Assembly: GCF_000177375.1 (NCBI RefSeq)
Contig: NZ_ADFR01000008.1
Span: 1 to 58,534, forward strand
Origin: Bulleidia extructa W1219
Lineage (GTDB): Bacteria > Bacillota_I > Bacilli_A > Erysipelotrichales > Erysipelotrichaceae
Direction of reading: 5' to 3'
DNA: 58,534 nucleotides
The notes under the pieces were generated by a model that was not told the origin of the DNA, made no database searches, and was given only the letters and a program-made list of their open reading frames with translations. This document shows positions 13,113-47,286 of this stretch, piece by piece; position 1 is the first letter of the stretch, and each line of letters opens with the position of its first letter. The position numbers were made by a program, and so were the translations under genes.

Positions 13113-13156
13113 GGATAGAATGACTATCTTGATAAGAATGAAAATCAAATGAAAGG

Positions 13157-13190
13157 CTAGAATGTTGTAGTTTAAATGTTCTAGTTTTTT
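13157..13190 (+). terminator. Weak terminator after the fusion gene
   Basis: CTAGAA and TTCTAG arms separated by a 16-base loop are followed by a run of six T. The stem is short, so confidence is low. Confidence 0.35.
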
Positions 13191-13306
13191 ATAACTGAAA
13201 ATAAAGAAATAAAACAGATTTGAATTATTTTTTAGAGAATAGAAACTAATGATTAAAAAATGGTAGACTTGGTCGATGTGTTAGAAGAAGGATGATAGAT
13301 CATGCG

Positions 13307-13333
13307 GAAATCCTATTTTTGTCATAGGATTTC
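13307..13333. repeat. 10-bp perfect inverted repeat, no U-tail
   Basis: GAAATCCTAT (13307-13316) and ATAGGATTTC (13324-13333) are perfectly complementary around TTTTGTC. No T-run follows on either strand, so it is not a classic terminator; it could be a protein site or a remnant element end. Confidence 0.6.
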
Positions 13334-13677
13334 ATAAACAAATTGAATGGAAAATTGTCTTATAAGAAGAAAAATTAGGAATAGATGAGAAAAGTCTGTA
13401 AGTAGTTATATTATAGTGCGAGGAAATTTTATTGGAATAGTGGAAATAAAACCTACAACGATTGTTTTGCAAAAAATGTTGAAAATACAGTATTCAAATG
13501 ATTTTGGAGACAGAAAAACAATCTTTCTGCGATACTGGTCTGACACTCAAAACTTCCTAAAGCAAGTTCAAACAGTAGTTGTTGTATGGAGCGAGGCTGT
13601 GACTTACAATGATTGAATGAAAACAAATAAGGTGATAGACTGATTGCAGAGACTTCCATTATTGTGGCGAATGGCTT

Positions 13678-13706
13678 TTGTAGAAATAATAAGTCAATTT
13701 TATAAT
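13678..13706 (+). promoter_or_regulatory. Promoter before the 118-aa protein gene
   Basis: TTGTAG, a 17-base spacer and TATAAT (13701-13706) lie 24 bases before the ATG at 13730. Confidence 0.5.
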
Positions 13707-13729
13707 ACTGATGAGGAGGAAGATTATCA

Positions 13730-14086
13730 ATGAGTTACACAATTTGTCTGTTCACTGTGGGTACAAAGCAGAAAGAACAACAGTTAGGACAACCCGATTT
13801 TTTTGAAAAGGATGAAAATCTGGAAAAATTCACACCGGAGCAACGATTAGAATTGGAAAACCGTTTGTTAAAATATCAATATCAACCAGCAGGAAATCAC
13901 AGTGACGGTAAACTGTTTGAACATCCTGATTTTGGAGAAGCGTTTTTGACAGACAGTGCATTGTATTTTTCAACTTCAAACGACTTTGATTGTATCTTTG
14001 AAGTAGGAATGACAGCATCTGAATTTACAGATACCGGTGAGTTTGCAAAATATGATGTGCAAGAAGGAGGCTGGGAAGAAGTATAG
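13730..14086 (+). CDS. Small acidic cytoplasmic protein of unknown function
   Basis: A 118-residue protein with no signal peptide or membrane segment and a clearly acidic composition (many Asp and Glu). GAGGAGG lies about 9 bases before ATG 13730 and a plausible promoter sits just upstream, so the gene is likely real. I do not recognise the family. Small, acidic, solitary proteins with this look are common among immunity-like or accessory genes, but no partner toxin is visible nearby. The first 30 residues include TVGTKQKEQQLGQPDFFEKD; the C-terminus ends EEGGWEEV-like. It is isolated between a gene-poor spacer and a convergent LCP gene. Confidence 0.65.
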   Translation: MSYTICLFTVGTKQKEQQLGQPDFFEKDENLEKFTPEQRLELENRLLKYQYQPAGNHSDGKLFEHPDFGEAFLTDSALYFSTSNDFDCIFEVGMTASEFTDTGEFAKYDVQEGGWEEV

Positions 14087-14238
14087 AACTGTTCCACGTC
14101 TATGGAGTTGAAATATATTTGTTTAACCGGTTGTGGAATTTTAGAAACAAGAGAACATAAAGGTTATTTAAATTCTTTTACTCTGCCTAGGATGAGAGAT
14201 ACTGAAGGTGTAAGACAAAGTCTTTCCTATATTTTAAG

Positions 14239-14268
14239 AAAAAGCACATATGATAGAATGTGCTTTTT
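14239..14268 (-). terminator. Terminator of the LCP gene (possibly bidirectional)
   Basis: AAAAAGCACA (14239-14248) and TGTGCTTTTT (14259-14268) form a 10-bp perfect stem five bases beyond the LCP stop codon. A-runs on one side and T-runs on the other suit termination in both directions, so it may also end transcription from the 118-aa gene. Confidence 0.8.
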
Positions 14269-14272
14269 AAAG

Positions 14273-15796
14273 TTATTGTTTGGTAGATGTTTTTTTAGAA
14301 GGATCTTTAATGATTTTATCATTTTCCATATCTTGGATCATTTGTTTCAATTTAGAAACTTGATTTGAATCCGGGAAGACGCAAGATAATGGTGTGCCCG
14401 GCAAAGAGGCTGTTCTAAACAGACCGGTAGTACCGGTTAGGCGGTAATTAATGATTTCCCATGATTTATCAGTTGCTAAAGTTTCTGTTCCTAATTGATA
14501 GAAATAGTTAATGTCAGTATCGGTTAGTAAAGATCCGGACAATGATTTCATAATGGCCGGGAATTTTGTGATGGAAGAAGGAGAAGTCACTTTTCTGATA
14601 ATAGCGTTAAGAACCAAGGTTTGGTGCATACCTCTACCAAAGTCGCCATCTTTTAGAGAATACCGTTCCCGAACATAGCCTAAGGCTTCATTACCGTTTA
14701 GATGAATCACACCTTTTGGATAAGTATAGCCACCGGCATTCGTTGCTACAAACCGATATGGATTATTTACATCAATTCCTCCTAAAGCATTAATAATATT
14801 GGAGAAAGTAACGAAATTAACAATCGCATAGTTGTCAATTTTCATATTTAACCAGTTGTTCAAAGACTTCATTGTATTATTGACTCCTTGAACGCCTAAG
14901 TGTGTTAGTTTGTCTTTACCACCACCTAAAGCAAGATTAGGAATCAAAGTATCACGAGGAATGGAAGTAATTAAAACCTGATGAGTTTTGGGATTCACTG
15001 TAACAATCATATTGACATCAAAACGATCTTTTAAAGACAGCTTACCACTTCGAGTATCACTACCTGCTATATAAACAGAGAAGGTACCGTCTTCTAAAGT
15101 GCGACGTTTAATTTCAGGGAGTTTTTCCGTCTTCTTAAAGCTATAGACAACTTTTGTGTCTTTTAGGAATGATTTATATTTATCGTTTGTGGCTAGTAAC
15201 TTCGCTACATCTTCAGGAAGCACCAGTGCTTGTCCTTGATTAGTATAAAGAGCACTAGCGGCTTCTTCGGCAGAAGTTTTTTCAATCAGTTTTATTTCTC
15301 CAATTTGAGATTTAATGGCTTCTAAGCCGGATTTTGTGTCTTCTAAAGAAGTGTTTGTCTGATCCAAAAAAGTCTTATCTTTATAATTCAGTAAGTTATC
15401 GTAAAAGGTAGTATCTTTGAAAATATCTTTATGGGCGGACTTATATTCACTGGTTAAAGCATAGACATTAATGATGGTACTTTGTTCGGTCACTCGTTTA
15501 AAAATTCCTTGAATGTTACTTTGTAAATAAGGCAAAAAACAAGATACCAAAATCATACAAATAGAAAAGAACACATTGAAAAATACGGTTATCTTAGAAA
15601 ACCAATAACGCTTTTTAGTGGTGGATAATAATAATCGATACAATAAGATAGCTGAAACAACTAACACAGAGAAAACCCACCATCGAAAGGGGATGAAAGG
15701 GAAAAACTTTAATACTATAAGAGCTACAATGGAACATAGCAGTAATAAAATCCAAGTTACTCTTCGAAAATCAATACGATTTTTCTTTTTAGCCAT
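14273..15796 (-). CDS. LytR-CpsA-Psr (LCP) family glycopolymer–wall ligase
   Basis: A 507-residue LCP protein. These membrane enzymes transfer undecaprenyl-linked glycopolymers (teichoic acid, capsule) to peptidoglycan on the outer face. The N-terminus is basic, followed by three hydrophobic segments in the first ~90 residues. The LCP domain starts near residue 240: VYIAGSDTRSG, FDVNMIVTVNP, ITSIPRDT with the conserved Arg/Asp, the DNYAIVNF segment, GGIDV, and ALGYVRERY with later GDFGRGMHQ. GGAG precedes the ATG on this strand. It faces the glycan genes across a spacer and is a good candidate for attaching their product to the wall (inference). Confidence 0.92.
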   Translation of the reverse strand: MAKKKNRIDFRRVTWILLLLCSIVALIVLKFFPFIPFRWWVFSVLVVSAILLYRLLLSTTKKRYWFSKITVFFNVFFSICMILVSCFLPYLQSNIQGIFKRVTEQSTIINVYALTSEYKSAHKDIFKDTTFYDNLLNYKDKTFLDQTNTSLEDTKSGLEAIKSQIGEIKLIEKTSAEEAASALYTNQGQALVLPEDVAKLLATNDKYKSFLKDTKVVYSFKKTEKLPEIKRRTLEDGTFSVYIAGSDTRSGKLSLKDRFDVNMIVTVNPKTHQVLITSIPRDTLIPNLALGGGKDKLTHLGVQGVNNTMKSLNNWLNMKIDNYAIVNFVTFSNIINALGGIDVNNPYRFVATNAGGYTYPKGVIHLNGNEALGYVRERYSLKDGDFGRGMHQTLVLNAIIRKVTSPSSITKFPAIMKSLSGSLLTDTDINYFYQLGTETLATDKSWEIINYRLTGTTGLFRTASLPGTPLSCVFPDSNQVSKLKQMIQDMENDKIIKDPSKKTSTKQ

Positions 15797-15919: not shown

Positions 15920-15947
15920 AAAAAGAGAAATGTGTATTTCTCTTTTT
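15920..15947 (-). terminator. Terminator overlapping the stop of the NrdI-like gene
   Basis: AAAAAGAGAAA (15920-15930) and TTTCTCTTTTT (15937-15947) form an 11-bp stem whose outer end includes the stop codon of the minus-strand gene; it reads into a T-rich stretch on that strand. Confidence 0.7.
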
Positions 15948-16326
15948 ACAATTGATTCAATTTAGCTTCTAACGCAGAAATCATTTCTTTGATTTTCGTT
16001 TCATCCGCATTACTTCCGCTACCATTGATGATCGCTAAAATAGGGACGTGGTATTCTTGTGAAATTTTAACACCGGCATAACCGTATGTTTTATAGTGAC
16101 GTTCAATAGAACCGGTTGCGACAACCGCCTTTAAGTATTCCTGATTTTTTTGTAAGAATTTTTCAACCATTTCAGGTATTTCTCCAACTTTATCAGAATA
16201 AGTCACCAGTACAAACGGTTCACTGACTTGTTCAGAACCGTCCACGATCTTAAGAGTGGATTCATATCCTAATGCATTCACTAAAGCTTCTGTTTTGCCT
16301 TGACGGCTTGCATAGACAACCAACAT
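15946..16326 (-). CDS. NrdI-like flavodoxin
   Basis: A 126-residue single-domain flavodoxin-like protein. MLVVYASRQGKTEALV matches an FMN phosphate loop, PFVLVTYSDKVGEIPEMVEKFL matches the second loop, and LKAVVATGSIERHYKTYGYAG with ISQEYHVPILAIINGSG resembles NrdI, the flavodoxin that helps assemble the Mn(III)2-tyrosyl cofactor of class Ib ribonucleotide reductase. No nrdE or nrdF is in the window, so it is an orphan here. The start has AAGGAG 8 bases upstream and a clear promoter at 16359-16387. A general flavodoxin role is the alternative. Confidence 0.75.
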   Translation of the reverse strand: MLVVYASRQGKTEALVNALGYESTLKIVDGSEQVSEPFVLVTYSDKVGEIPEMVEKFLQKNQEYLKAVVATGSIERHYKTYGYAGVKISQEYHVPILAIINGSGSNADETKIKEMISALEAKLNQL

Positions 16327-16358
16327 ATTTTTTTCTCCTTTATTCTTTATGTGACTCC

Positions 16359-16387
16359 ATTATAAGAAAGAAAAATCATACAAACAA
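16359..16387 (-). promoter_or_regulatory. Promoter of the NrdI-like gene
   Basis: On the minus strand TTGTTT (16382-16387), a 17-base spacer and TATAAT (16359-16364) lie about 33 bases before the start codon. Confidence 0.65.
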
Positions 16388-16513
16388 AAGATATGCCCAA
16401 CATGAATGACTCAATGGAGAAGGATGGTTTTGAGGTCAATTTTTTAGTGGTGATTAGGAATATCAGTCATAGAATGTTTTATAATAAAATATATCAGAAT
16501 AGAAAAAGGAGAA

Positions 16514-16774
16514 ATGATGAAACCAAAGACACTGAAAATGATGGGATGGATAGCAACGGGTACGGCTATGCTTATGTACATCTCTTATTTACCTCAAATC
16601 ATTCATAATATACATGGGGTTAAAAGTGGGTTCTTACAACCTATGGTTGCGGCAATCAATTGTGTTTTATGGGTTAGTTATGGCTTTTTTCAAGAGAAAA
16701 AAGATTGGCCTATTGTGATTGCCAATTTGCCGGGTGTGATACTTGGCACTATCGCTGCGATGACTGCTTTATAA
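16514..16774 (+). CDS. SemiSWEET family sugar transporter
   Basis: An 86-residue membrane protein with three hydrophobic helices, the size of a bacterial SemiSWEET half-transporter, which works as a homodimer to carry sugars. The PQ-loop signature is present (YISYLPQIIHN, with PQ at about 27-28), followed by a GVKSGFLQPM turn, the NCVLWVSYG helix and a final helix with LPGVILG. AAAGGAG lies just upstream; ATG 16517 is an equally possible start with better spacing. It stands alone, divergent from the NrdI-like gene. The substrate is not readable. Confidence 0.87.
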   Translation: MMKPKTLKMMGWIATGTAMLMYISYLPQIIHNIHGVKSGFLQPMVAAINCVLWVSYGFFQEKKDWPIVIANLPGVILGTIAAMTAL

Positions 16775-16782
16775 GCGGAAAC

Positions 16783-16845
16783 AAGAAATATATGATACTT
16801 CAAATCTTTAGTGATGTGTTCGCTTGAAACTGAAAGAAGTAAATA
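16783..16845 (+). repeat. Leader copy 1 (upstream of the 319-aa orphan gene)
   Basis: The 63 bases before ATG 16846 align with the 64 bases before ATG 17993. They share an exact 18-mer, AATCTTTAGTGATGTGTT (16803-16820), about 33 of the first 38 bases, and a similar purine-rich ribosome-site region. Confidence 0.75.
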
Positions 16846-17805
16846 ATGGAGAATCAGGACATGGAAAAAATATTTTTTGAATATGGTGAGAACAGTATTA
16901 CATTATATGAAGCATTGAAAAAGGCTGATCCGCCAAGTAATATAGTTGAAATTTTTAACCGACTTCAAAAACAGCTATATTCATATACAGATTTTGAAAT
17001 AAAAAATTTTACAAAATTACAAAAATTTTCCACCAATAAACAATTGGTCAATTTTTTATGTGACTTATTAAAAAGAGTTTGTCCTCATCATGAAAATAAA
17101 GAGTTTTATTATCTTTTGGTAGTATTGAGTTATTCCCAAGAGCCAAAAGCAATTGAATATTTGGGACGGCTAACAGAATTTGTGATTGCTAATCAGCTGA
17201 ATCTTTGTCATGTTTTACTGATTGTTTTTAATGAAATCAGTGCTTCACAGTTATTGTTCCATAAAGGAAAATTAGAGCAATATTTTTCAGAACTTTATGA
17301 GCAAAGTGATTATTTTGAGTTGGTGAAACAAATAGGAATTGATATTTCAAAAATGGAGTTTAAGAAAATAGGAGGGGAAGGATATTTTAGATTTGACTTG
17401 ACTAATATGGAAGGAGTTAAATATGAATTTCAGTTGGATAATGACATAGATAAAAGAAATTTTTGCAAACTGAATATTTCTATTTTTACTCCCAAGGGGA
17501 TGAAAACCTGTTTTGATGTGTCATTATCAAGCGAACAATTCTTGCTCTATCACCATCATAAAGATTATTATGTGTCTTCTAAAGAAGAGATGAAACTGTT
17601 TAATAAAGAAACGAAGAAGGAATTTTATATAGAAAACAGCATGAATGCATTAGAACTTAAGAATATAGTAAGGCAGATTGAGGATGTTTTACAGACAAAA
17701 TTTGTTTCAAAAATAGCGGATTCTTATTTTTCAAAGCCTTTAAAGGGGAAGAAAGAATTACAAAAATGGTGGGAAGATAACACCACAGTCACAGGAGAAA
17801 ATTAA
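16846..17805 (+). CDS. Orphan protein of unknown function between duplicated leaders
   Basis: A 319-residue soluble protein with no signal peptide or membrane helix. It is Lys/Phe/Tyr-rich and AT-richer in codon choice than its neighbours, which hints at foreign origin. I do not recognise the family. The first ~150 residues look helical, with repeated hydrophobic heptad-like patterns (LVNFLCDLLKRVC, FYYLLVVLSYSQEP). The rest is more mixed and contains KIGGEGYFRFDLTN and an FDVSLSSEQFLLY segment. It lies between two copies of a ~64-base leader, the second serving the alcohol dehydrogenase gene, so it seems to have entered or been duplicated with that upstream DNA. Confidence 0.75.
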   Translation: MENQDMEKIFFEYGENSITLYEALKKADPPSNIVEIFNRLQKQLYSYTDFEIKNFTKLQKFSTNKQLVNFLCDLLKRVCPHHENKEFYYLLVVLSYSQEPKAIEYLGRLTEFVIANQLNLCHVLLIVFNEISASQLLFHKGKLEQYFSELYEQSDYFELVKQIGIDISKMEFKKIGGEGYFRFDLTNMEGVKYEFQLDNDIDKRNFCKLNISIFTPKGMKTCFDVSLSSEQFLLYHHHKDYYVSSKEEMKLFNKETKKEFYIENSMNALELKNIVRQIEDVLQTKFVSKIADSYFSKPLKGKKELQKWWEDNTTVTGEN

Positions 17806-17928
17806 TCATTTTTAAAGAGAGATACAAAAAGCTGATCAAACCATAGTGAAAGAAGAATTTCATTAGCTTGATGAGGATTGGAAATCATTATTAAGAGATT
17901 TCCTACTTAAAAATACCTAATCAAAAAT

Positions 17929-17992
17929 AAGAGATATAGGATACTGAGAATCTTTAGTGATGTGTTAAAATGAAGCTAAAAGAGGTGAAACT
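17929..17992 (+). repeat. Leader copy 2 (upstream of the alcohol dehydrogenase)
   Basis: Homologous to 16783-16845, with the shared 18-mer at 17949-17966. This copy continues into TTAAAAT, a possible -10, and a GAGGTGAAA ribosome site directly before ATG 17993. Confidence 0.75.
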
Positions 17993-19156
17993 ATGGAAAA
18001 CTTTGTGCATCATATTCCAACAAAACTGTATTTTGGGAAAGGAACGATTTCGCATTTAGAAGAATCACTACGACCATTGGGACAAAAAGTTCTATTGACA
18101 TATGGAGGAGGCTCAATTAAGAAATCGGGATTATATGATGAAGTCATCGCCATATTACAGAAGGGCGGTTTTGAAGTATTTGAATGTGCCGGAATTGAAC
18201 CGAATCCTCGTGTAGAATCAATCGCTAAAGGAGCAGAACTATGCAAGAAAGAAAAAGTGGAGGTTATTTTATCCGTTGGTGGTGGAAGTACCCTAGATTG
18301 TTCAAAAGCGATAGCGGTCGGTGCTTATTATGTGGGGAATGATTATTGGCAAATGGTTCTTGAATCGAATGAACAAAAGAAAGCTTTACCCATTGTGGCT
18401 GTTATGACAATGGCTGCCACCGGTTCTGAGTTGGACAGTTGTGGAGTGATCAGTAATATGACTTTACATAAAAAGATTGGTCGTAATTTTACCTTTCCGA
18501 CCGTTTCCATTTGTGATCCATGTTATACGTTCACACTTCCAGCTAAACAAAGTGCTGCCGGAGGAGCGGATATGATGTCGCATATTATGGAAGGCTATTT
18601 CTCACGGACAATGGATTCTGATTTATCTGAAGCCATTGAAGAGGGAATTTTAAAGTCGGTCATTCATCATCTACCCATTGTTTTACAAGATCCAAAGAAT
18701 TATGAGGCTAGAGCTAATCTGTTTTGGAATTCTTCAATTGCCTGTTCTGGAATGCCAGAGTATGGAAAATTGAAAACAGGATGGCCGTGTCACGCGATGG
18801 AACATGAATTATCAGCTTTTTATGATATTACCCATGGTGTTGGGTTGGCTATTTTAACACCTCGCTGGTTGCGTTTTATTTTGAAAAAAGATCCGAGTAT
18901 TACACCAAGATTGGTCAAGTTTGCGAAAAATGTGTGGGGCTTGGAAAATCAAGATGACACCGAGTTAGCGAAAGCAGGGATTCAAGCGCTATTTGATTTC
19001 TTTGTTTCAGTAGGAATTCCAATGAATTTAAAAGATCTGGGTATTGATGAAACGCATTTTGAAGAAATGGCTGAATCTTGTACTCGTCCATCATTTTCCG
19101 GTTTTGTAGATTTAAGCAAAGAAGATATTGTGCATATTTTTAAAATGTGTCTTTGA
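17993..19156 (+). CDS. Iron-containing alcohol dehydrogenase (BdhA/YugJ-like)
   Basis: A 387-residue group III alcohol dehydrogenase, probably NADPH-dependent and reducing butyraldehyde-type or other aldehydes in fermentation. Visible: the N-terminal FVHHIPTKLYFGKG, the nucleotide site GGGSTLDCSKAIAVG near 96-110, GGADMMSHIMEGYF with metal ligands (Asp and His), and AMEHELSAFYDITHG carrying two further His ligands. Length is typical. GAGGTG precedes the ATG. The upstream ~64 bases are duplicated ahead of the previous gene. A terminator follows immediately. An aldehyde dehydrogenase lies 6 kb downstream but is not in the same operon. Confidence 0.92.
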   Translation: MENFVHHIPTKLYFGKGTISHLEESLRPLGQKVLLTYGGGSIKKSGLYDEVIAILQKGGFEVFECAGIEPNPRVESIAKGAELCKKEKVEVILSVGGGSTLDCSKAIAVGAYYVGNDYWQMVLESNEQKKALPIVAVMTMAATGSELDSCGVISNMTLHKKIGRNFTFPTVSICDPCYTFTLPAKQSAAGGADMMSHIMEGYFSRTMDSDLSEAIEEGILKSVIHHLPIVLQDPKNYEARANLFWNSSIACSGMPEYGKLKTGWPCHAMEHELSAFYDITHGVGLAILTPRWLRFILKKDPSITPRLVKFAKNVWGLENQDDTELAKAGIQALFDFFVSVGIPMNLKDLGIDETHFEEMAESCTRPSFSGFVDLSKEDIVHIFKMCL

Positions 19157-22756: not shown

Positions 22757-24538
22757 ATGGATCGGAAAGAAATTGCTTTAGAAGATAAATGGGATTTAAA
22801 GACACTTTTTAAGAGTGATCAAGATTTTGAAATAGCGCTAAAAGATGTACAGGAAGAGATGAAACATCTAGGCAAGTATGTTGGTCAATTAAAGGATGCT
22901 ATTTGTTTAAAAGAGTACTTGGATTTGTATTATGAAGTAGAAGGAAAGTTAGATAATGTTTTTACCTATGCGGCTTTAAGAGAAAGTGAAGATACCCGAC
23001 AATCTATAGCCAGTGATATGTATGCTCGAGCGTATGGAGCTTATGTGGAATTAATGAGTTTGATTTCTTATGTTCAACCGGAATTGTTGTCATTAAGTAT
23101 TCAAGAATTGGAACTCTTGATGAATCGAGAAATCTTAAAGAAATATCGCTTTGTTTTGGAGAAGATGGTTCGGGAAAAAGCCCATACCTTAAGTGAGAAG
23201 GAAGAAAATATCTTAGCTTCTTTGCAAGAAGTATTGGGAGCTTCTTCGCAAATCAGTTCGAAATTAATGGATGCGGATATGTCCTTTGATTCTATTTTGG
23301 ATCAAGAAGGGAACCGACATGAATTGAATGCGACGAATTACATTCTTTACCAAACCAGTCAAGATCGTGTGTTAAGAGAAAACGCCTTCCGTTCTTTCTA
23401 TAAATCTTATAAGCAATTTAATCATACGTTAGCTCAAACATATAGCACTTGTGTGAGTGCCGCTACTAAAGAGGCGAAGTTGCGTCATTTTGACAGTTCT
23501 TTAAAGGCTTCTTTATATAGCGATGCAATTCCTCAAACCGTCTATGATCAATTGATTGAAACGATTCATGAATATATGCCGGTGATGTATCGTTATGTCG
23601 CATTGCGAAAGAAAATTTTAGGGGTGGATGAACTTCATTATTACGATTTATACACGCCATTAAGCGATTTAGAAATGAAATATGATTTGCAACAAGCCAA
23701 AGAAATGGTGATTGAAGCTGTGAAACCAATGGGAAATGATTATCAAGACATTGTTCGCCAAGCTTTTAAGGATCGTTGGATGGATGCTTATCCAAATGAT
23801 GGCAAGCATTCCGGGGCTTTCTCTAGTGGTACTAGAACATCGAATCCTTTTATTCTAACCAATTTTACAGGGACTTTGGATGCGGTTAGTACTATTGCTC
23901 ATGAAATGGGTCATTCGATGCATACTTATTTCACCAGCCATCATCAAGAACAACCATATGCGAACTATTCTTTATTTATTGCGGAAGTGGCTTCGACGGT
24001 TAATGAAAATCTATTGATTGAACAATTGTTGGAAAAAGAAACAGACCCTAAGAAACGTCTTCATCTGTTAAATCAATACTTAGAAGGTTTTAAGGGGACA
24101 ATTTATCGTCAAACTATGTTTGCGGAATTTGAAAAAGAAGTGCATGCTCATCGGGAACAAGGTCAATCCTTGACGACGGAATACCTAAATGGTTTGTATG
24201 AAAAACTGGTGAAGGAATACTTTGGAGACGGGTTAGTTATGGATCCTGAGGTTCAGTATGAATGGTCACGTATTCCTCATTTCTATCGTCCTTTCTATGT
24301 CTATGTGTATGCGACCGGTTATAGTTCAGCGGTAGCGATTTCAGAAAAGCTCCGCTTAGGCAGTCAACAGGATAAGGACAATTATCGCCGTTTCTTAAGT
24401 GTCGGTTCTTCTGTTTATCCGCTTGAAGCATTAAAGATTGGTGGGGTGGATCTGACCAGTCGAGAACCAATTCGTTTGGCGTTAGAAAAGTTTAAACAAA
24501 TTGTGGAAGAAGCCGAAAAAATAGTGGATAAACTTTAA
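22757..24538 (+). CDS. pepF: Oligoendopeptidase F
   Basis: A 593-residue M3B zinc metallopeptidase that degrades short peptides in the cytoplasm. The catalytic HEMGH (HExxH) starts near residue 382, with the downstream Glu ligand expected in the SLFIAEVASTVNENL segment. The N-terminus EDKWDLKTLFKSD and the GTRTSNPFILTNF stretch are typical of PepF. Length matches the family (about 600). AAAGGA lies about 11 bases before the ATG. It is divergent from the DUF1846 gene and followed by a small membrane protein gene in the same direction. Confidence 0.95.
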   Translation: MDRKEIALEDKWDLKTLFKSDQDFEIALKDVQEEMKHLGKYVGQLKDAICLKEYLDLYYEVEGKLDNVFTYAALRESEDTRQSIASDMYARAYGAYVELMSLISYVQPELLSLSIQELELLMNREILKKYRFVLEKMVREKAHTLSEKEENILASLQEVLGASSQISSKLMDADMSFDSILDQEGNRHELNATNYILYQTSQDRVLRENAFRSFYKSYKQFNHTLAQTYSTCVSAATKEAKLRHFDSSLKASLYSDAIPQTVYDQLIETIHEYMPVMYRYVALRKKILGVDELHYYDLYTPLSDLEMKYDLQQAKEMVIEAVKPMGNDYQDIVRQAFKDRWMDAYPNDGKHSGAFSSGTRTSNPFILTNFTGTLDAVSTIAHEMGHSMHTYFTSHHQEQPYANYSLFIAEVASTVNENLLIEQLLEKETDPKKRLHLLNQYLEGFKGTIYRQTMFAEFEKEVHAHREQGQSLTTEYLNGLYEKLVKEYFGDGLVMDPEVQYEWSRIPHFYRPFYVYVYATGYSSAVAISEKLRLGSQQDKDNYRRFLSVGSSVYPLEALKIGGVDLTSREPIRLALEKFKQIVEEAEKIVDKL

Positions 24539-24577
24539 AACCAATTGAAAAAATGGCTTGGCTTAGAAGGAGGTTCT

Positions 24578-24982
24578 ATGAAGAATAACGATATGTTTTT
24601 CCATGTTTATGTGCCTTTAATCATGATTCTTTTGTTGGTTATGATCTTTTTCCATAGATTCCATCGTCTTAGGTATTTATATTTAACCACTTTCTTTGTT
24701 TGGTTTGTGACATTAATCGCTTATTTCATTTTTAGTAAACAACCTGTCGGATACAAAGATCCTAGACCATGGATGCACGTCATACCATTTATTTGTGTCT
24801 TTGGATCTTTTGGTGGTAGTGCTCTTTCTATTTGGTCAGTTTCTAAGTTTGTGCTTGAATTTTCACAAAGAGAACTATGGGCGAAAGGGCTGGTAGCGGT
24901 GGCTTGTGTGGCCATGATGCTATGGTATGTCTGGCTAATTCATTGGATTGTAATAGGCATTTTGTCATTGAAGAGCGGATAA
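24578..24982 (+). CDS. Small integral membrane protein of unknown function
   Basis: A 134-residue protein with four hydrophobic segments: around HVYVPLIMILLLVMIFF, LTTFFVWFVTLIAYFIF, VIPFICVFGSFGGSAL and VAVACVAMMLWYVWL. The start at 24578 is chosen for its AGGAGG site; upstream in-frame TTG codons are not supported. It begins 39 bases after pepF and probably shares its transcript. No family is recognised and no catalytic motif is visible. Confidence 0.7.
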   Translation: MKNNDMFFHVYVPLIMILLLVMIFFHRFHRLRYLYLTTFFVWFVTLIAYFIFSKQPVGYKDPRPWMHVIPFICVFGSFGGSALSIWSVSKFVLEFSQRELWAKGLVAVACVAMMLWYVWLIHWIVIGILSLKSG

Positions 24983-25018
24983 TCGTTTACCAAATCGGGG
25001 AAAATAATAAAAAGATGG

Positions 25019-25050
25019 TAAAAACCTTAGCTGAAAAAGCTGAGGTTTTT
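25019..25050 (+). terminator. Terminator after the pepF transcript
   Basis: AAAACCTTAGC and GCTGAGGTTTT arms (one G-T pair) around a short A-rich loop, ending in five T. Confidence 0.6.
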
Positions 25051-25089
25051 AGTATTGAGAAGATAGGTGTTTCGTCTTAGGCATATTCA

Positions 25090-25131
25090 TTGTTGCCTAT
25101 AAAGGATTTTGATAGTATGAAGCTATCAAAA
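25090..25131 (+). promoter_or_regulatory. Candidate promoter with overlapping operator-like inverted repeat
   Basis: TTGTTG (25090-25095), 17 bases and TAGTAT (25113-25118) form a modest promoter. A 9-bp perfect inverted repeat, TTTTGATAG (25107-25115) and CTATCAAAA (25123-25131), overlaps the -10 and start region, as an operator would. A hairpin in the leader RNA is the alternative. Confidence 0.4.
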
Positions 25132-25155
25132 GATATATTCAAAGGAGGAAATCAT

Positions 25156-26646
25156 ATGAATAGACCTGAAATTAAGATTCAAGATACTTATGGATTATAT
25201 ATTGGTGGACAATGGCTACCTGCTTCGGATGGAAAAACGTTTAAAACATATTCTCCAGCGGATTCCAGCTTTTTAGCTAATGTGGCTGAGGCAACGAAAG
25301 AAGATGTGGATCAAGCCGTTAAAGCAGCTTGGGAAGGGTTTGAAGTCTGGAAGAAAACCACTCCTGCTCAAAGAGCGAAAGCCCTTAATCAGATTGCGGA
25401 CATCATTGAAGAGCATGCGGACTTTTTAGCTTTGTTGGAAACGTTAGATAATGGGAAACCCATTCGAGAAACCAAAGCACTGGATATTCCGTTTGCGGCA
25501 GAACATTTCCGTTATTTTGCAGGAGTGATTCGAGCCGATGAAGGATCGGCGGTCATGTTAAATGAAACTACGATGAGTTTAGTTCTGCATGAGCCAATTG
25601 GGGTTGTCGGTCAAATTATTCCTTGGAATTTCCCGTTTTTAATGGCGGCTTGGAAGTTAGCACCGGTGATTGCGACCGGTAATGCGACGGTTTTAAAACC
25701 ATCCAGTTCAACTTCGTTAAGTGTTCTTGAGTTGACTAGAATGATTGATGAAGCCGGCATCCTTCCGAAAGGGGTATTAAACGTTATCACAGGTGCCGGT
25801 AGTCGATCAGGACAGTATATCTTGGATCACAAAGGATTTAGTAAATTCTCATTCACCGGTTCTACCGAAGTGGGATATAACGTGGCTAAAGCCGCTGCTG
25901 AAAAGATGATCCCAGCGACATTGGAGCTTGGTGGAAAATCAGCGAATATCATTTTCCCGGATGCGAAGATGGATATGGCTGTTGAGGGGGTTTTGACAGG
26001 GATTCTATTTAACCAAGGACAAGTATGCTGTGCCGGATCAAGATTATTTATCCACGAGGATATTTATGACGAGTTCTTAAAAAAACTGGCTGAAAAATTT
26101 GAAACGGTCAAGGTAGGTATGCCTTGGGATCCGGAAACTCAAATGGGAGCACAAGTGAATGAAGGACAATTAAAGAAAGTTCTAAGATATGTGGAACTTG
26201 GTGTCAAAGAAGGAGCAGTGATTACAGCAGGTGGTGAAAGAATCACAGGCGGTGTGATGGATCGAGGCTTCTTTACCAAACCAACCATTTTATCCAATGT
26301 GACCAACGATATGACGATTGCTCAGGAGGAAATCTTCGGACCGGTTGTGGTAGCGATTAAGTTTAAAAACGAAGAAGATGTGATTCAGATGGCAAATGAT
26401 AGTGAATATGGTTTAGGTGGTGCTGTTTGGACAAGAGATATCAATACCGCTATGCGTGTTTCCAGAGGAATTCAGACGGGGCGTATGTGGGTGAATACGT
26501 ATAACCAAATCCCGGAAGGAGCACCGTTTGGTGGATATAAGAAATCCGGTATTGGTAGAGAAAATCACAAGATGATGATTGCTCATTATACCCAAGTTAA
26601 GAACATTATGATTAACTTGAGTGAAGAGTTGAACGGTTTGTATTAA
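25156..26646 (+). CDS. NAD(P)-dependent aldehyde dehydrogenase
   Basis: A 496-residue class aldehyde dehydrogenase that oxidises an aldehyde to the acid. Seen: the N-terminal GLYIGGQWLPASDGKTF, PWNFPFLMAAWKLAPV cofactor region, the glutamate in LELGGKSANI, the catalytic Cys in NQGQVCCAGSR (C291) and EEIFGPVV. The ATG at 25156 follows AAAGGAGG with ideal spacing; a longer frame from 25090 lacks a site and would cover the inverted repeat. Betaine- or propionaldehyde-type substrates are possible; sequence alone does not decide. It has its own terminator. Confidence 0.93.
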   Translation: MNRPEIKIQDTYGLYIGGQWLPASDGKTFKTYSPADSSFLANVAEATKEDVDQAVKAAWEGFEVWKKTTPAQRAKALNQIADIIEEHADFLALLETLDNGKPIRETKALDIPFAAEHFRYFAGVIRADEGSAVMLNETTMSLVLHEPIGVVGQIIPWNFPFLMAAWKLAPVIATGNATVLKPSSSTSLSVLELTRMIDEAGILPKGVLNVITGAGSRSGQYILDHKGFSKFSFTGSTEVGYNVAKAAAEKMIPATLELGGKSANIIFPDAKMDMAVEGVLTGILFNQGQVCCAGSRLFIHEDIYDEFLKKLAEKFETVKVGMPWDPETQMGAQVNEGQLKKVLRYVELGVKEGAVITAGGERITGGVMDRGFFTKPTILSNVTNDMTIAQEEIFGPVVVAIKFKNEEDVIQMANDSEYGLGGAVWTRDINTAMRVSRGIQTGRMWVNTYNQIPEGAPFGGYKKSGIGRENHKMMIAHYTQVKNIMINLSEELNGLY

Positions 26647-26651
26647 AAATC

Positions 26652-26682
26652 AAAAGGATTGGACACGATACAATCCTTTTTT
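26652..26682 (+). terminator. Terminator after the aldehyde dehydrogenase
   Basis: AAAAGGATTG and CAATCCTTTT arms with a 9-base loop and a T run. Confidence 0.8.
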
Positions 26683-26765
26683 ATGATATTCATTTGGTGG
26701 TTTTTCGACTAATTCTAATTCGAAATCATATAAAGAAAGAAAAAGAATCAAGAAGTAAAGAAAAG

Positions 26766-35373: not shown

Positions 35374-36624
35374 ATGAATCCGTTGACGCAATTATTAAAA
35401 AAAGAATTGGTTTGTGCTTTGGGGTGTACAGAACCCATTGCGATTGCTTTAGCTAGTGCGAAGGCAAGGGAAATTTTGGGTGGTTTACCAAAAGAAACGA
35501 TCGTTCGTTGTTCAGGAAATATCATTAAAAATGTTAAAGGAGTGACCGTTCCAAATACCCATGGTTTAAAAGGGGTTAAAGCGGCAACCGCTATTGGTTT
35601 GATAGCAGGAGAGGCCCATAAGGGATTGGAAGTTTTATCTAAAGTGAACGACTATGATATTGCTTGTGCAAAAGAAATGTTGAAAGAAAACCAAATCAAG
35701 GTAGAGCTTAAAGAGGGAGTGGAAAACCTAGATATTGAAATATGGGTTCGTGATGATCGGGGTAATGATTGTTTAGTTGAAATTCAAAATAAACACACCA
35801 ATTTTTTTCGTATGATAAAAAATGGAAAATTCATTTATCAAGGGAAATTGGTAGAAGATCAACAAGATCAATATTTAGAACAATTATCCATTCATTCTAT
35901 TATTCAATACGCTCAAACGGTTCCACTAGAAGAAGTGGAAGAAATGATTCATCAACAAATTGAACTGAATCAAGCCATCGCCAAAGAGGGTTTAAAAGGA
36001 AATTGGGGAGCGGAAGTAGGAAAACTTCTATTATCAGAAGAAGAAAGTCTTCGGTCAAAAGTGAAAGCGTATGCGGCGGCGGGTTCAGATGCTCGAATGA
36101 GCGGTTGTCCTTTACCGGTGGTGATTAATGCCGGTTCTGGTAATCAGGGCATCACTTGTTCGTTACCGGTCATTATTTATGCTAAAGAAAAGAAAAAATC
36201 ACACGAACGATTGATTCGAGCTTTATTGGTATCCAATTTAGTAGCTCTTCATATTAAACGATATATTGGACGCTTATCCGCTTTTTGTGGAGTGACTTCG
36301 GCTGGAGTGGCGGCTGGTGCAGCGTTAGCTTATTTAGAAAATCCGGATGAACAACTGGTTTGTGATACGATATCCAATTCTTTGATGATTGTATCGGGCA
36401 TGGTTTGTGATGGAGCGAAACCCTCTTGTGCTGCCAAGATTGCTTCGGCAGTCGATGCGGGTTATACAGGCTTCCAAATGGCTCTTCATCAGCGTACTTT
36501 CCAAGTGGGGGAAGGTCTTATGAAAAAGGATGTGGAACAAACCATTCAAGCGATTGGTCATCTAGGAAAAGTGGGCATGAAACAAACAGATCTGGAGATC
36601 TTGAAAATGATGTTGGAGTCATAG
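35374..36624 (+). CDS. L-cysteine desulfidase / serine dehydratase alpha-like protein (UPF0597)
   Basis: A 416-residue member of the YhaM/CyuA (UPF0597) family, relatives of iron–sulfur serine dehydratases; characterised members break L-cysteine down to pyruvate, ammonia and sulfide. Seen: ALGCTEPIAIALA (Cys18), VRCSGN, AGSDARMSGCPLPVVI, AGSGNQGI and FCGVTSAGVAAG, with conserved Cys residues likely holding an Fe–S cluster. The stop is followed by a stretch without promoter or gene until an IS remnant. The ATG has GGTGA-type purines upstream. The exact substrate (cysteine or serine) is not decided by sequence. Confidence 0.83.
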   Translation: MNPLTQLLKKELVCALGCTEPIAIALASAKAREILGGLPKETIVRCSGNIIKNVKGVTVPNTHGLKGVKAATAIGLIAGEAHKGLEVLSKVNDYDIACAKEMLKENQIKVELKEGVENLDIEIWVRDDRGNDCLVEIQNKHTNFFRMIKNGKFIYQGKLVEDQQDQYLEQLSIHSIIQYAQTVPLEEVEEMIHQQIELNQAIAKEGLKGNWGAEVGKLLLSEEESLRSKVKAYAAAGSDARMSGCPLPVVINAGSGNQGITCSLPVIIYAKEKKKSHERLIRALLVSNLVALHIKRYIGRLSAFCGVTSAGVAAGAALAYLENPDEQLVCDTISNSLMIVSGMVCDGAKPSCAAKIASAVDAGYTGFQMALHQRTFQVGEGLMKKDVEQTIQAIGHLGKVGMKQTDLEILKMMLES

Positions 36625-36702
36625 TGATAGACCTTTTATTTGTCATGATGGGAAGATATCGATTTCAAGAGAGGTTTTGGATATATGGAAAAGATTAAGA
36701 TC

Positions 36703-36731
36703 AAAAAGGATACCGTTCAGGTATACTTTTT
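36703..36731 (+). terminator. Hairpin directly before the IS remnant start codon
   Basis: AAAAAGGATACC and GGTATACTTTTT arms (one mismatch) end one base before ATG 36732. It would terminate transcription from the desulfidase gene and shield the transposase fragment from read-through. Confidence 0.55.
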
Positions 36732-36926
36732 ATGAGTAAATATTCGTATGAAGAAAGACTAGAAGCTGTTTTAAGAGTGGTTGAAGAAGGCATGAGTTAC
36801 GAAGCTAGTTCAAAAGTCCTGAAAACTGTTCAAGGTCAGGTGCAAAGATGGGTTAACCGTTATGAAAAATATGGTCCTGAGGGATTGCTATTGCACGATG
36901 ACACATATACTGGCGAGTATAGGTGA
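36732..36926 (+). pseudogene. IS3/IS150-type transposase OrfA remnant
   Basis: A 64-codon frame whose helix-turn-helix (YSYEERLEAVLRVVEEG, then VQRWVNRYEKYGPEGLL) matches the start of IS150-type OrfA/InsJ transposases, which are about 170 residues with an OrfB integrase partner. The frame stops after the first HTH, no OrfB and no clear terminal repeats are seen, and no ribosome site precedes it. It is probably a decayed insertion sequence. It lies between a terminator hairpin and the rpsD gene. Confidence 0.6.
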
Positions 36927-37120
36927 TCAGGTAATGAAAATGGCCATTAATAGAATGGACTTTGAATGAGAAGGGGAAGAAGGCTTTCTTTCGACAACAA
37001 TGAAGAAAATTAGAAACATTAGATTTAGGGTATGAAGCAACAAACTGAAAAGAATTGTTGCTTTTTATATAGAGTTAAGAAAATTGAAAAAGATCATCAG
37101 AAATGGGAGAAAGAATGTCC
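36927..37120. other. Non-coding spacer after the IS remnant
   Basis: No gene is supported. It contains a terminator-like hairpin at about 37033-37067 (AGCAACAA and TTGTTGCTTTTT) reading rightward; the rest is AT-rich and may be IS debris. Confidence 0.5.
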
Positions 37121-37150
37121 AAAAATAAAAGAAGCCATTGAAATGGCTTC
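37121..37150 (-). terminator. Terminator of rpsD
   Basis: On the minus strand GAAGCCATT and AATGGCTTC arms with a 3-base centre are followed by a T-rich tail. Confidence 0.8.
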
Positions 37151-43250: not shown

Positions 43251-43333
43251 CGTAAAAAAGGACGATATATATTGGCTAGAAATCAGCGGATTTATTCATC
43301 CATTTCTTTGATTTTTATGATGATTTATAGTGT

Positions 43334-43361
43334 TTGAAAAAAGGTGTGAAGAGATTATAAT
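43334..43361 (+). promoter_or_regulatory. Promoter before the 262-aa orphan
   Basis: TTGAAA (43334-43339), a 16-base spacer and TATAAT (43356-43361) lie 43 bases before ATG 43405. Confidence 0.6.
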
Positions 43362-43404
43362 TGGATTATGGATCATCATATAAAGTGCAGAAAGGAAGAT
43401 GAAA

Positions 43405-44193
43405 ATGAAGAGAGTTTTTGAAAACGCAGCGTTTAACTGTGATAGTCAAGGGAAATATCGGTTACAGGTGGATAGTGAGGGAGTCACGTATGCCTCAGCC
43501 GATGGGAAAAAGTCGGTGGATATCAAATTTACAGAAGTTGGATCCATTCTTCCCCTTACTTATTGCAATTCAAATCAGCATTATTTAGTGACTTTTCGTG
43601 ATTTGGATTGGAAGAATATGGAAGAAATTGATACGGATGTGTCGGTAAGGCCAGAACGGACGATTCAAGGGAATAATATTGTAGAAACCAAATCCATTCT
43701 GATTGCGTTTGCTGAGAATAAATTAACCGAAGCATTTCCAAACAATTTAGATAGTCTTGATTTAGAAGTTGCTTTTTCCCTGAAAGAAAAGAAAATCAGG
43801 CTTAAAGAAGGGGCGCTGATCGGAGCTAAGCATCAGGTGAAACTGTCGGATATCCGTAGGGTTCAATGTGCTTCTAATGGAACTTTAAGTTATCTTTTGG
43901 TTTATACGAAGGAAAAAGGCGGATTTTGGGATATGCCTGATATGAAAGTTCCGGTCAATGAACTCACATTGCCGATTTTGGAAGCGGTGATGGCTAAAAA
44001 TACCGGTAGAGGGATTGACTTTAGTAAAGGAAATGGGTTTGACCAAAAAACTAGTGAATATATCCTGGAACGATATATGAATTCTACGTTTTTTATGAAC
44101 AAAGATGGAAGTGTGAGTGATGATTGGCATAAAGTGGCTTTTGAACATATTGCTTTTTATCAAGCGGATTTGCTTATGCCTGAGGAATCATAA
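43405..44193 (+). CDS. Unrecognised soluble protein, possibly two beta-rich halves
   Basis: A 262-residue protein with no signal peptide or membrane segment. Residues 1-170 look like two similar beta-rich segments (VTYASADGKKSVDIKFTEVGSI and a later IRLKEGALIGAKHQVKLSDIRR), each strand-rich with a KxSDI/FTEV turn, as in PH-like folds; the C-terminal part is helical. This is a visual impression, not an assignment. ATG 43405 is chosen over 43399 because AAAGGA is then 8 bases away. It has its own promoter and terminator, so it is monocistronic. Confidence 0.65.
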   Translation: MKRVFENAAFNCDSQGKYRLQVDSEGVTYASADGKKSVDIKFTEVGSILPLTYCNSNQHYLVTFRDLDWKNMEEIDTDVSVRPERTIQGNNIVETKSILIAFAENKLTEAFPNNLDSLDLEVAFSLKEKKIRLKEGALIGAKHQVKLSDIRRVQCASNGTLSYLLVYTKEKGGFWDMPDMKVPVNELTLPILEAVMAKNTGRGIDFSKGNGFDQKTSEYILERYMNSTFFMNKDGSVSDDWHKVAFEHIAFYQADLLMPEES

Positions 44194-44229
44194 ATACCAC
44201 CTATAGTTGAATATTTTCATATAAATTAA

Positions 44230-44268
44230 AACAATCAGTGCCTTAGTGGACACTGATTGTTATTTTTT
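44230..44268 (+). terminator. Terminator after the 262-aa orphan
   Basis: AACAATCAGTG (44230-44240) and CACTGATTGTT (44251-44261) form an 11-bp perfect stem followed by a T run. Confidence 0.85.
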
Positions 44269-44382
44269 GTGGATAGAAAATCTCAATCATCTAGGAGCTT
44301 GATAGCGGTCACTTACCATTTTTCTGATCCAGATTTTCTAAAAGAATTTGCAGGAAAAATGAATCATAGGTACTTTTAAATG

Positions 44383-44446
44383 GTGTCATATAAAAGGAAT
44401 TAGTGTATAATCAATAATAACATTATCAATAACGTGATTATTGATA
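44383..44446 (+). promoter_or_regulatory. Promoter and palindromic operator of the TetR/ECF operon
   Basis: GTGTCA (44383-44388), 17 bases and TATAAT (44406-44411) form the promoter. Just downstream TATCAATAA (44424-44432) and TTATTGATA (44438-44446) are a perfect 9-bp inverted repeat with spacer CGTGA, and a third half-site ATCAATAA starts at 44410. The position suits autorepression by the TetR protein encoded 23 bases later. Confidence 0.6.
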
Positions 44447-44468
44447 TAACCATTACGGAGAAGTAGGT

Positions 44469-45089
44469 ATGGCAAATAAAAATCATGAATTAGATCATCC
44501 AATCATTGAAGCGGCTAAACAGGAATTTTTACAAAATGGGTTCCAATCAACTTCAATTCATCAGATAGCTAAAAGAGCGAAAGTAACCACCGGAGCTATA
44601 TATACAAGATATCAAGGAAAAGATGAACTTTTTTGTAGTTTGATAGAAGGTTTTTTACAAGCTTTGGAGAAAGAAAGAAAAGATAATAAAAAAGCATATA
44701 TCCGTTATTGTGTGGATAAAAATTTTGATCGTTTTTTGAAGGATATAGAGAAAGAAATTGCCGGATATATTGATATTTTATTTGCACATTATGATGAATG
44801 TAGACTGTTGTTGTGTTGTAGTAAAGGTAGTTCGGTTGAAATGATGCTTCATGAAATGATGGAGAACAAAGTGTCTGAAACAAAAAAATTTATCAAGCAA
44901 AATATGGTTTCAGATATTAGTGAGATAAAACTAGATTTAGTGGAATTATTAATAAAACAACAATTTAATGTATATACCTTAGTGATAGAAAAAGGGTATA
45001 GCAAAGATGAAACTGTTGAATATATCAGAATGTTAGGGGAATTCATTGAAGCCGGTTGGGAAAAAACATTCAAAGATTTTATGAAATAA
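44469..45089 (+). CDS. TetR/AcrR family transcriptional regulator
   Basis: A 206-residue TetR-type repressor. The N-terminal DNA-binding domain is clear (FQSTSIHQIAKRAKVTTGAIYTRYQGKDELF, residues about 21-51, split here across the helix-turn-helix), followed by an all-helical ligand domain. A perfect 9-bp inverted repeat lies just upstream. The gene is 11 bases before the fused ECF ABC gene, so it likely controls that transporter in response to a ligand the S-component may carry (inference). AGAAGTAGG precedes the ATG. Confidence 0.9.
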   Translation: MANKNHELDHPIIEAAKQEFLQNGFQSTSIHQIAKRAKVTTGAIYTRYQGKDELFCSLIEGFLQALEKERKDNKKAYIRYCVDKNFDRFLKDIEKEIAGYIDILFAHYDECRLLLCCSKGSSVEMMLHEMMENKVSETKKFIKQNMVSDISEIKLDLVELLIKQQFNVYTLVIEKGYSKDETVEYIRMLGEFIEAGWEKTFKDFMK

Positions 45090-45100
45090 GGATGAATTCT

Positions 45101-47275
45101 ATGGATAAGGTAAATGAAATAGGTGAACCCGTTTTAGATTTTAAAATTGATTTTTCATATGAATTAAAGAAAGAAAAAGCTTTGAGTCATGTGAAGGGCA
45201 GTATATCAAAAGGAAGATGCGTGGTTCTTTGTGGTGGAAGTGGATCAGGAAAATCGACATTGCTCAGATGTCTAAATCATTTGATTCCTGAATTTTATGA
45301 GGGTATCTTTAATGGGTATATATTAGTCAATGATAAGAATATAAGTCATAAAAATATGGGTGAAGTTGGTGAACTGATTTCATCTGTTTTCCAGGATCCA
45401 AGAAGTCAATTTTTCACAATGGAAAGTGATACAGAAGTTTCCTTTGGTTTGGAAAATAAAGGGTTGTCTTTTGAAAAAATAAGAGAAAGAACAAAAGAAG
45501 CCTTTTCGAAATTCAACTTGGAATATTTAGAAAATCGAGAAGTTTTTAAATTGTCGAGTGGAGAACGGCAACTAATAGCCATTATGGCTGCTTGGGCAAT
45601 GGATACCGATATAATTTTATTCGATGAACCGACCGCAAATTTAGATTATTTGGCCATCGAAAAGTTGAAAGAAATTTTGTTACTACTTAAGAAAGAAGGG
45701 AAAACACTCCTAATAAGTGAACATAGACTCTATTATTTACAAGGCCTAGCAGATGAATTTTGGCTCATGAAAAATGGTTCTATATATGAAAAATATGAGC
45801 AGAATCAATTGCTGGCATTTTCGCCAAGCGAATTGAATGATTTGGGTTTAAGAGTGACTGATTTGAAACAGATACAAATACAAAGCGGACAATCAGATAT
45901 AGGAAGTGACAAATTGGAAGTCAGAAATTTATCTTTCAGCTATCAGAAACAAAAAATTTTAAAGGATATATCTTTGACGACATCTTCAGGAGAAATTACT
46001 TGTCTTATTGGAAAGAATGGCTGTGGGAAAACAACTTTAGGAAAATGTATATCCGGATTACTTAGGTCTCCAAGTGGAAGTATATTTCTAAATGGGGAAG
46101 AAATGTCTTCTAAAAAATTAGTACAAGAAAGTTTATTTATTATGCAGGAAGCCGAATTTCAGTTTTTTACAAATTCCGTATTGCTTGAACTGAAATATGG
46201 TTTGAATCCATCCAGATATGTGGAAATAGAACCCTTGCTTAAAAAATTTGATATGTGGGAGTATAGGAATAGACATCCTTTTTCTCTTTCCGGCGGTCAG
46301 ATGCAAAAATTAACTTTAATGATGGCCTATCTTTCAGATAAGAGGATGATTGTGTTAGATGAGCCGACCTCGGGTCTGGATAAAAAAAGTCTAGATACGA
46401 TAATAGAGCTGATCAAAGAAATGAAGAAACAAAAGATAGTGGTGGTAATCAGTCATGATTTAGAATTGATTGCTGCGGTTTCGAATAAGTGCTTAGAGAT
46501 TCATGATGGTGTTATACAACGGATTTGTGAAATCAACAGTCATGAAAGCATTAAAAATATGATTGAAATTTTTGAAACAAATGATTTTGAAAATAGGAGT
46601 TCCCCTAAAAAAAGAAAGAAATGGTTGGATCCGAGAACTAATTTATTGTTTTTATTTTTTTGTATGATAGCGGTGGGAATTGATCATAAGCAGCTGATTT
46701 TTGAATACAATCTGTTAGCACTTCTGTTTTCGATCGTCAATAGAAGATACAAGAGTTTTATAGTCACTGCAAGCATAATAAGTACTATCTATGGCTTTGA
46801 GAGGATGTTTCCTTGTGAAATGACATGGTTTATGGCAAATCTGTTACCGAGGTTTATTCTTTTATTTTCTCTGTTTCCTATTCTTTTAGGAGGGCGTGGA
46901 GCCACTTATATGCTTGCAGGATTACGAAAAATAGGAGTACCTGAGAGAATATTATTGATTTTGTCTGTTTCATTTAGATTTTTTCCAGTACTTCAAAATG
47001 ACTTTAATTTATCGAGGCAGGTTTTAAAAATGAGAGGAAGTGGTACATGTAAAAACATCATTCAAAAAAAACTGGCGTATTTGGAAGCACTTGTTATTTC
47101 CTTAGTTTTCCGAGTGATCAGAATAGGAGAAACATTATCAGCTTCCGCCGAAACTAGAGGAATAGGCTTAAAACACAAGAAAGGTTCCTATATCTCTTTG
47201 CGATTTAACTTATTTGATTATTTGTTGATGATTGGTATGACATTCATTTTAATAATCAATATATTTGAAAAATAG
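45101..47275 (+). CDS. ECF transporter energizing module as one fusion (EcfA-EcfA-EcfT)
   Basis: A 724-residue protein joining parts usually encoded as three genes. Domain 1 (about 15-240): ABC ATPase with CGGSGSGKST (44-53), SSGERQLIAIMA, LFDEPTANLD. Domain 2 (about 275-490): second ATPase with GKNGCGKTT (304-312), SLSGGQMQKLTLMMA, VLDEPTSGLD. Domain 3 (about 505-724): EcfT-type membrane subunit with five helices and the coupling motifs KMRGSG and SAETRGIG. It energises vitamin or small-molecule uptake with an S-component. ATG 45101 is used because AAGGA is 8 bases away; the frame extends upstream through the tetR end. An S-component gene follows by 11 bases. Confidence 0.9.
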   Translation: MDKVNEIGEPVLDFKIDFSYELKKEKALSHVKGSISKGRCVVLCGGSGSGKSTLLRCLNHLIPEFYEGIFNGYILVNDKNISHKNMGEVGELISSVFQDPRSQFFTMESDTEVSFGLENKGLSFEKIRERTKEAFSKFNLEYLENREVFKLSSGERQLIAIMAAWAMDTDIILFDEPTANLDYLAIEKLKEILLLLKKEGKTLLISEHRLYYLQGLADEFWLMKNGSIYEKYEQNQLLAFSPSELNDLGLRVTDLKQIQIQSGQSDIGSDKLEVRNLSFSYQKQKILKDISLTTSSGEITCLIGKNGCGKTTLGKCISGLLRSPSGSIFLNGEEMSSKKLVQESLFIMQEAEFQFFTNSVLLELKYGLNPSRYVEIEPLLKKFDMWEYRNRHPFSLSGGQMQKLTLMMAYLSDKRMIVLDEPTSGLDKKSLDTIIELIKEMKKQKIVVVISHDLELIAAVSNKCLEIHDGVIQRICEINSHESIKNMIEIFETNDFENRSSPKKRKKWLDPRTNLLFLFFCMIAVGIDHKQLIFEYNLLALLFSIVNRRYKSFIVTASIISTIYGFERMFPCEMTWFMANLLPRFILLFSLFPILLGGRGATYMLAGLRKIGVPERILLILSVSFRFFPVLQNDFNLSRQVLKMRGSGTCKNIIQKKLAYLEALVISLVFRVIRIGETLSASAETRGIGLKHKKGSYISLRFNLFDYLLMIGMTFILIINIFEK

Positions 47276-47286
47276 GAGGATGAAAG

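Follow-up and report, generated by a model that had tools for sequence, protein, structure and literature searches.

How two similar stretches of DNA came to flank a gene without recognizable relatives in Bulleidia extructa W1219, one standing before that gene (the orphan) and the other before the iron-containing alcohol dehydrogenase (ADH) gene that follows it, is the question raised by this locus. An earlier note, made from the sequence alone, had pictured a gene acquired into, or duplicated with, a promoter-leader segment, and had suggested that the similar DNA may be a common regulatory site controlling both genes. The window analysed is the whole stretch of 58,534 nucleotides (contig NZ_ADFR01000008.1, positions 1 to 58,534), which belongs to a 16-contig assembly of 1,419,583 bases with a completeness of 97.9% (genome G000); the features of the locus are collected in Table 1.

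Table 1. Features of the orphan-ADH locus, numbered from the first base of the window.
Feature	Position	Strand	Remarks
nrdI-like gene	15946-16326	-	left neighbour of the variable slot
Variable slot	16406..17960		flanked by nrdI-like gene and ADH; without BLAST homology to G095
SemiSWEET-like sugar transporter gene (MtN3_slv)	16514..16774	+	86 aa; Pfam PF03083, E 5.5e-7
Leader copy 1	16772-16843	+	upstream of orphan; 55/72 matches to copy 2
Orphan gene	16846..17805	+	319 aa; coding by codon score; no credible homolog
Spacer	17806..17917	+	112 nt, between orphan and copy 2; broken 34-codon frame, hairpins
Leader copy 2	17918-17989	+	upstream of ADH; 3' part (17961 onward) taken as native ADH leader
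Candidate ADH promoter	17944..17971	+	CTGAGA-16-TAAAAT, extended -10 TG; consensus match only
Iron-containing ADH gene	17993..19156	+	387 aa; Pfam PF00465, E 1.1e-43; PF25137, E 2.7e-36

The two leader copies, at a spacing of 1146, align over 72 nt without gaps at 76% identity, and a BLAST search within the genome returns the pair trimmed to 65 nt (78%, E 2e-9). Their local alignment score of 60 is far above that of 2000 dinucleotide shuffles (mean 16.1, maximum 31), and the alignment of about 64 bases that had been claimed, with its exact 18-mer and its ribosome-site region, is thereby confirmed. The 18-mer, AATCTTTAGTGATGTGTT, occupies 16803-16820 and 17949-17966; the window has no other site for it even when three mismatches are allowed, and at least two sites are found in 1 of 100 shuffles. 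On the 5' side of the 18-mer, 22 of 31 positions match in register where 10.5 are expected, a count reached in 0 of 20000 shuffles, and this part has a local score of 44, which none of 2000 shuffles reaches (maximum 26). On the 3' side the in-register matches are 15 of 23 (8.2 expected, p 0.0013); the 3' third of the repeat is above chance in register only, its free local alignment, copy against copy, being at chance level (360 of 2000 shuffles). The first triplet of copy 1 is the TAA stop codon of the SemiSWEET-like gene, and the copies stop 2 and 3 nt short of two ATG codons, so that the ribosome-site region is inside the repeat (AGAAGTA in copy 1, a poorer site than AGAGGTG in copy 2).

The leader is not a common dispersed repeat, a possibility that the earlier note had regarded as fatal to its proposal. 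With two copies in 1.42 Mb it differs from dispersed intergenic repeats (REP, MITE-like), a third copy being absent from the assembly in a mismatch search (up to three) and in BLAST with copy 1. Searching the genome for the 18-mer with up to three mismatches gives the two leaders and one further site, with three mismatches, and the reversed control pattern gives two sites; beyond the pair, BLAST with copy 1 returns short pieces only, of which the best is 17 nt on contig 1 inside a MutS-domain gene. Among 69 other genomes of the genus there is no credible match to copy 2, five of them yielding pieces of 17-32 nt (E 0.005-0.05). A longer query, consisting of copy 2 with its flanks, matches G049 (E 2.4e-4) and G045 (E 8.9e-4) among 40 relatives, the former in a promoter and ribosome-site stretch before a gene that by eye is plsX-like. 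The exact 18-mer was not found in viral contigs. The idea that the leader is the end of an insertion sequence, which was based on 23 nt of copy 1 (87%, E 0.3) matching at 11 places in the genome G090, was rejected as a chance resemblance; the one place inspected adjoins an IS110-type transposase gene (PF01548, PF02371) and has AATCTTTAGTGAT in common with the 18-mer. The repeated stretch of G090 (L091 around 1500, and ten other places) has at the inspected place a sequence that by eye is hairpin-like and contains AATCTTTAGTGAT.

The orphan is judged to be coding because its in-frame codon score (+0.059 per codon) is far above that of 500 shuffles of itself (-0.42 +/- 0.06); its other five frames score between -0.27 and -0.48. 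The AT-richer codon use that had been ascribed to it is borne out: among 34 window genes picked from the list of open reading frames, it has the lowest GC content (29.2%; mean 36.8, standard deviation 3.0, the orphan included) and the poorest codon fit (the median of the 34 being 0.21). Translation may in fact begin at a second in-frame ATG, at 16861 with GGAG upstream, given that copy 1 has a poorer ribosome site than copy 2. No homolog is found in 59 other relatives (1 match in 60, the genome itself) or in 394 other genomes of the class (1 in 395, again itself; the set overlaps with that of the relatives). At the level of the order, two of 314 other genomes give matches (L055 and L056, E 0.005 and 0.009), both judged to be due to chance, the former being antisense in a coiled-coil-like gene and containing two stops, and the latter lying in a reading frame that by eye resembles a PTS regulator. 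No relative of the orphan was found in phages or plasmids, and none was confirmed in GTDB contigs or viral contigs, in which a prefilter of short peptide patterns makes close relatives alone detectable. Scans against Pfam, NCBIfam, PADLOC and PHROGs give nothing useful, the matches to PHROGs (E 0.014 and 0.037) and to Pfam (E 0.035-0.11) being too weak to use; a match in the PDB to protein F93 (E 0.0037) was rejected, having 19.8 bits and an alignment that ends on a histidine run. A resemblance by eye between the first codons of the orphan and those of the ADH was likewise rejected, equally good shuffles numbering 1140 of 2000 for the DNA, 282 of 2000 for the first 40 residues and 20 of 300 for the full proteins. 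The single-sequence structure model (pLDDT 37.7) is unusable. Coding and with no detectable homolog, the orphan is an ORFan, and to all appearance an ordinary AT-rich, lineage-specific gene.

The interval that holds the orphan varies. G095, the only close relative found (one contig of 1,545,033 bases, 76-83% identical to the DNA of the window in aligned blocks), has the nrdI-like gene and the ADH gene enclosing a gene for a 177-aa methyladenine glycosylase (PF03352, E 2.9e-57); the SemiSWEET-like gene, the orphan and the full leader are all absent from its interval, and neither of the two genes has a match anywhere in its genome. Homology resumes at 17961, within the last third of copy 2, so that the last 32 bases of the leader are common to both genomes. 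Relatives had been expected to have this locus without the orphan; G095 does lack the orphan here but has, in place of an empty site with one leader, the glycosylase gene and the last 32 nt of the leader only. The glycosylase gene of G095 (C1:564431-564961, L081) has no match in G000 (eight genomes searched, five with a match), and G000 may have lost this repair gene. The slot is defined by one relative only, and in G090 and G105 the ADH genes have other upstream neighbours. The SemiSWEET-like gene is patchily distributed, being present in two of 70 genomes of the genus, its own included (E <= 1e-8): G000 and G090, where the counterpart is 76% identical and at an unrelated site. The ADH is assigned to its family well above the cut-offs (149.2 bits against 31.3, and 125.5 against 27). 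The spacer between the orphan and copy 2 contains a broken frame of 34 codons (17816-17917, one in-frame TAG) that ends exactly at the first triplet of copy 2; as a possible remnant of a known gene it was compared with 99 other genomes, none of which gave a match better than E 0.05. The spacer hairpins are strong: the fold of 17800-17945 has z -2.27, and 6 of 200 shuffles reach its stability.

Five stretches in the aligned part of the window, each of 150 nt or more, are without homology to the matching 60 kb of G095, and the slot is one of them. The other four (13139-14273, 24538-26765, 36618-37126 and 43254-48034) include genes for an unknown protein of 118 aa, and an aldehyde dehydrogenase (PF00171), together with a cluster of TetR, ABC-transporter/CbiQ and Trep_Strep genes, the third having no open reading frame of 90 aa. 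The TetR-family gene (44469-45089, PF00440), inside one of these variable intervals, has a GC content of 29.5%, nearly as low as that of the orphan. At these four intervals no direct flanking repeat pair is above shuffles and the inverted pairs, found at two, are weak (6 of 200 and 14 of 200 shuffles); therefore, no common mechanism of insertion is seen. The slot itself has no transposase or integrase, its only open reading frames of at least 80 aa being the SemiSWEET-like gene and the orphan, neither of which matches such families, and no terminal inverted repeats stand out at its ends (taken as 16406 and 18011), the inverted score being 24, with 37 of 200 shuffles as good.

Comparison with the leaders of other ADH genes bears on where the repeat came from. 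Upstream regions were tested for 81 of 85 ADH loci (79 distinct sequences), among which G095 is the best in register with the ATG: 24 of 32 positions of 17961-17992 match (10.4 expected; 0 of 20000 shuffles), the next two regions having 18, and the local score of this 3' part of copy 2 with G095 is 30, reached by 1 of 1000 shuffles. Copy 1, in the register of the repeat, which here lies closer to the ATG by one base, matches the same leader of G095 at 19 of 31 positions where 9.6 are expected; of the shuffles, 9 of 20000 do as well, and this register was one of two tried. With strict anchoring on the ATG the matches of copy 1 are 9 of 32, and in free local alignment it is at chance level (374 of 1000 shuffles). 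In the free local comparison of copy 2 with the 81 regions, G095 scores 25 and L112 (Lachnoanaerobaculum) 33, against a shuffle maximum of 26. Occurrence of the leader before other ADH genes was dismissed, this best score of 33 comparing with 60 for the leader pair; by eye, the L112 match consists of the end of the preceding gene and a -10-like stretch. Because both copies match the ADH leader of G095 and copy 1 stands before a different gene, the repeat is taken to stem from an ADH leader; all in all, such a leader is the likely source of the 3' part in both copies, copy 1 being the displaced one. The copied segment would already have had its present left part, since the similarity of the copies crosses 17961, where homology to G095 starts. 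On the assumption of roughly neutral change, the duplication looks old, because the copies differ by 24%, a figure similar to the 17-24% by which G000 and G095 diverge along the window.

The sequence is less favourable to common control of the two genes. In copy 2 the 18-mer fills the spacer of the candidate ADH promoter, at the position of which G095 has TGTGCTAAAAT; promoter-like consensus matches are not enriched in the region (11, against 13.4 in shuffles). Copy 1 reads TTCGCT at the -10 position of copy 2 and appears to have lost the promoter-like -10, and the orphan is probably transcribed from another start, for which a weak consensus match (TTTATA-17-TATGAT, 16768-16796) is a candidate. 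When the matches are permuted at this identity, 6% (72 nt) or 8% (65 nt) of the arrangements contain an exact run of 18, and the 18-mer therefore needs no special constraint. Rfam has no match on the leaders, the one match in 16300-18100 being inside the orphan (E 2.2, below the gathering score), and the leaders fold no more stably than shuffles (z -0.51 and 0.35). The common regulatory site of the earlier note thus goes unsupported, a shared operator being a possible candidate to which these results lend no support.

Taken together, the evidence leads us to favour, with moderate confidence, the view that the ADH promoter-leader (about 65-72 bp) was duplicated in direct orientation long ago, at a variable slot where a lineage-specific orphan now stands between the two leaders. 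Copy 2 would be the native ADH leader and copy 1 a diverged duplicate that would have lost its -10 and would now be only the 5' leader of the orphan, transcription of which would start elsewhere, perhaps at the weak candidate given above. In keeping with such a duplication, the content of the slot differs between relatives, as the glycosylase gene of G095 and the location of the SemiSWEET-like gene at another locus in G090 illustrate; against it, a genome with one leader was not found, the 3' third of the repeat is at chance level in free local alignment, and L112 exceeds G095 in the free local comparison with copy 2. An alternative that we consider unlikely but worth weighing is insertion by recombination at the leader, DNA of a sister lineage having brought the orphan together with its own version of the leader and left one leader on each side. 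The extreme composition and codon fit of the orphan among the window genes, its want of a credible match in the other genomes searched and the variability of the slot are all as this would predict, and a comG competence locus is reported for a relative, Bulleidia extructa PP_925 (PMC12786226); however, neither a donor nor a one-leader site was found in the genomes searched, and the divergence of the copies gives no sign of a recent event. The proposal that a gene was acquired into, or duplicated with, the promoter-leader accordingly holds in part: the duplication of the leader, the AT-rich and lineage-specific character of the orphan and its absence from G095 agree with it, but the empty site with one leader that it predicts did not appear. 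The gene may have arrived with its leader, or the leader may have been copied around the gene, no intermediate genome having been found.

A single regulator acting at both genes through the 18-mer as its operator is less probable still. The exact 18-mer is present in both leaders, filling the promoter spacer in copy 2 and lying in copy 1 just downstream of the weak candidate promoter, but the frequency of such runs in permutations, the reach of the similarity well past the 18-mer, the single further genomic site against two for the reversed control, the want of an Rfam family and the failure of copy 1 to keep the -10 all tell against it. Slighter yet are the chances that two ordinary leaders have come to look alike through promoter and ribosome-site elements. 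Ribosome sites and extended -10 boxes can indeed resemble each other without common descent, as the match of G049 exemplifies, and the 3' part of the repeat resembles such generic sequence before other genes; the 5' part, outside these elements, is nevertheless where the similarity is strongest, and convergence is nearly refuted. The least probable reading makes the product of the orphan a regulator, of a new family, that binds an element of the leader before its own gene and before the ADH and controls both, the repeats allowing the unit to be lost by recombination to leave an ADH with a single leader. The importance of the locus would grow only if the element common to the leaders were an operator for the product of the orphan itself. 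Most likely the locus reflects an old local duplication of an ordinary kind and is neither a new genetic system nor a shared switch; at most it illustrates, on a small scale, how a gene that lacks relatives may reach a variable slot and be preceded there by a copy of the leader of its neighbour.

Three known situations invite comparison. Transposon insertion leaves target-site duplications, which are likewise direct repeats flanking a gene, whereas the repeat here is 65-72 nt long and 76% identical, with no transposase or integrase in the slot, and is the leader of a gene rather than the remnant of a target. The orphan resembles other ORFans, or taxonomically restricted bacterial genes, in being coding, AT-rich, without detectable relatives and situated in a variable interval, and differs in having a two-copy leader repeat on both flanks, which hints at how the site changed. 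In the duplication of leaders or promoters and in horizontal regulatory transfer, a promoter-leader segment is likewise copied before another gene, but here the copy is without a -10 and any regulatory role would be putative.
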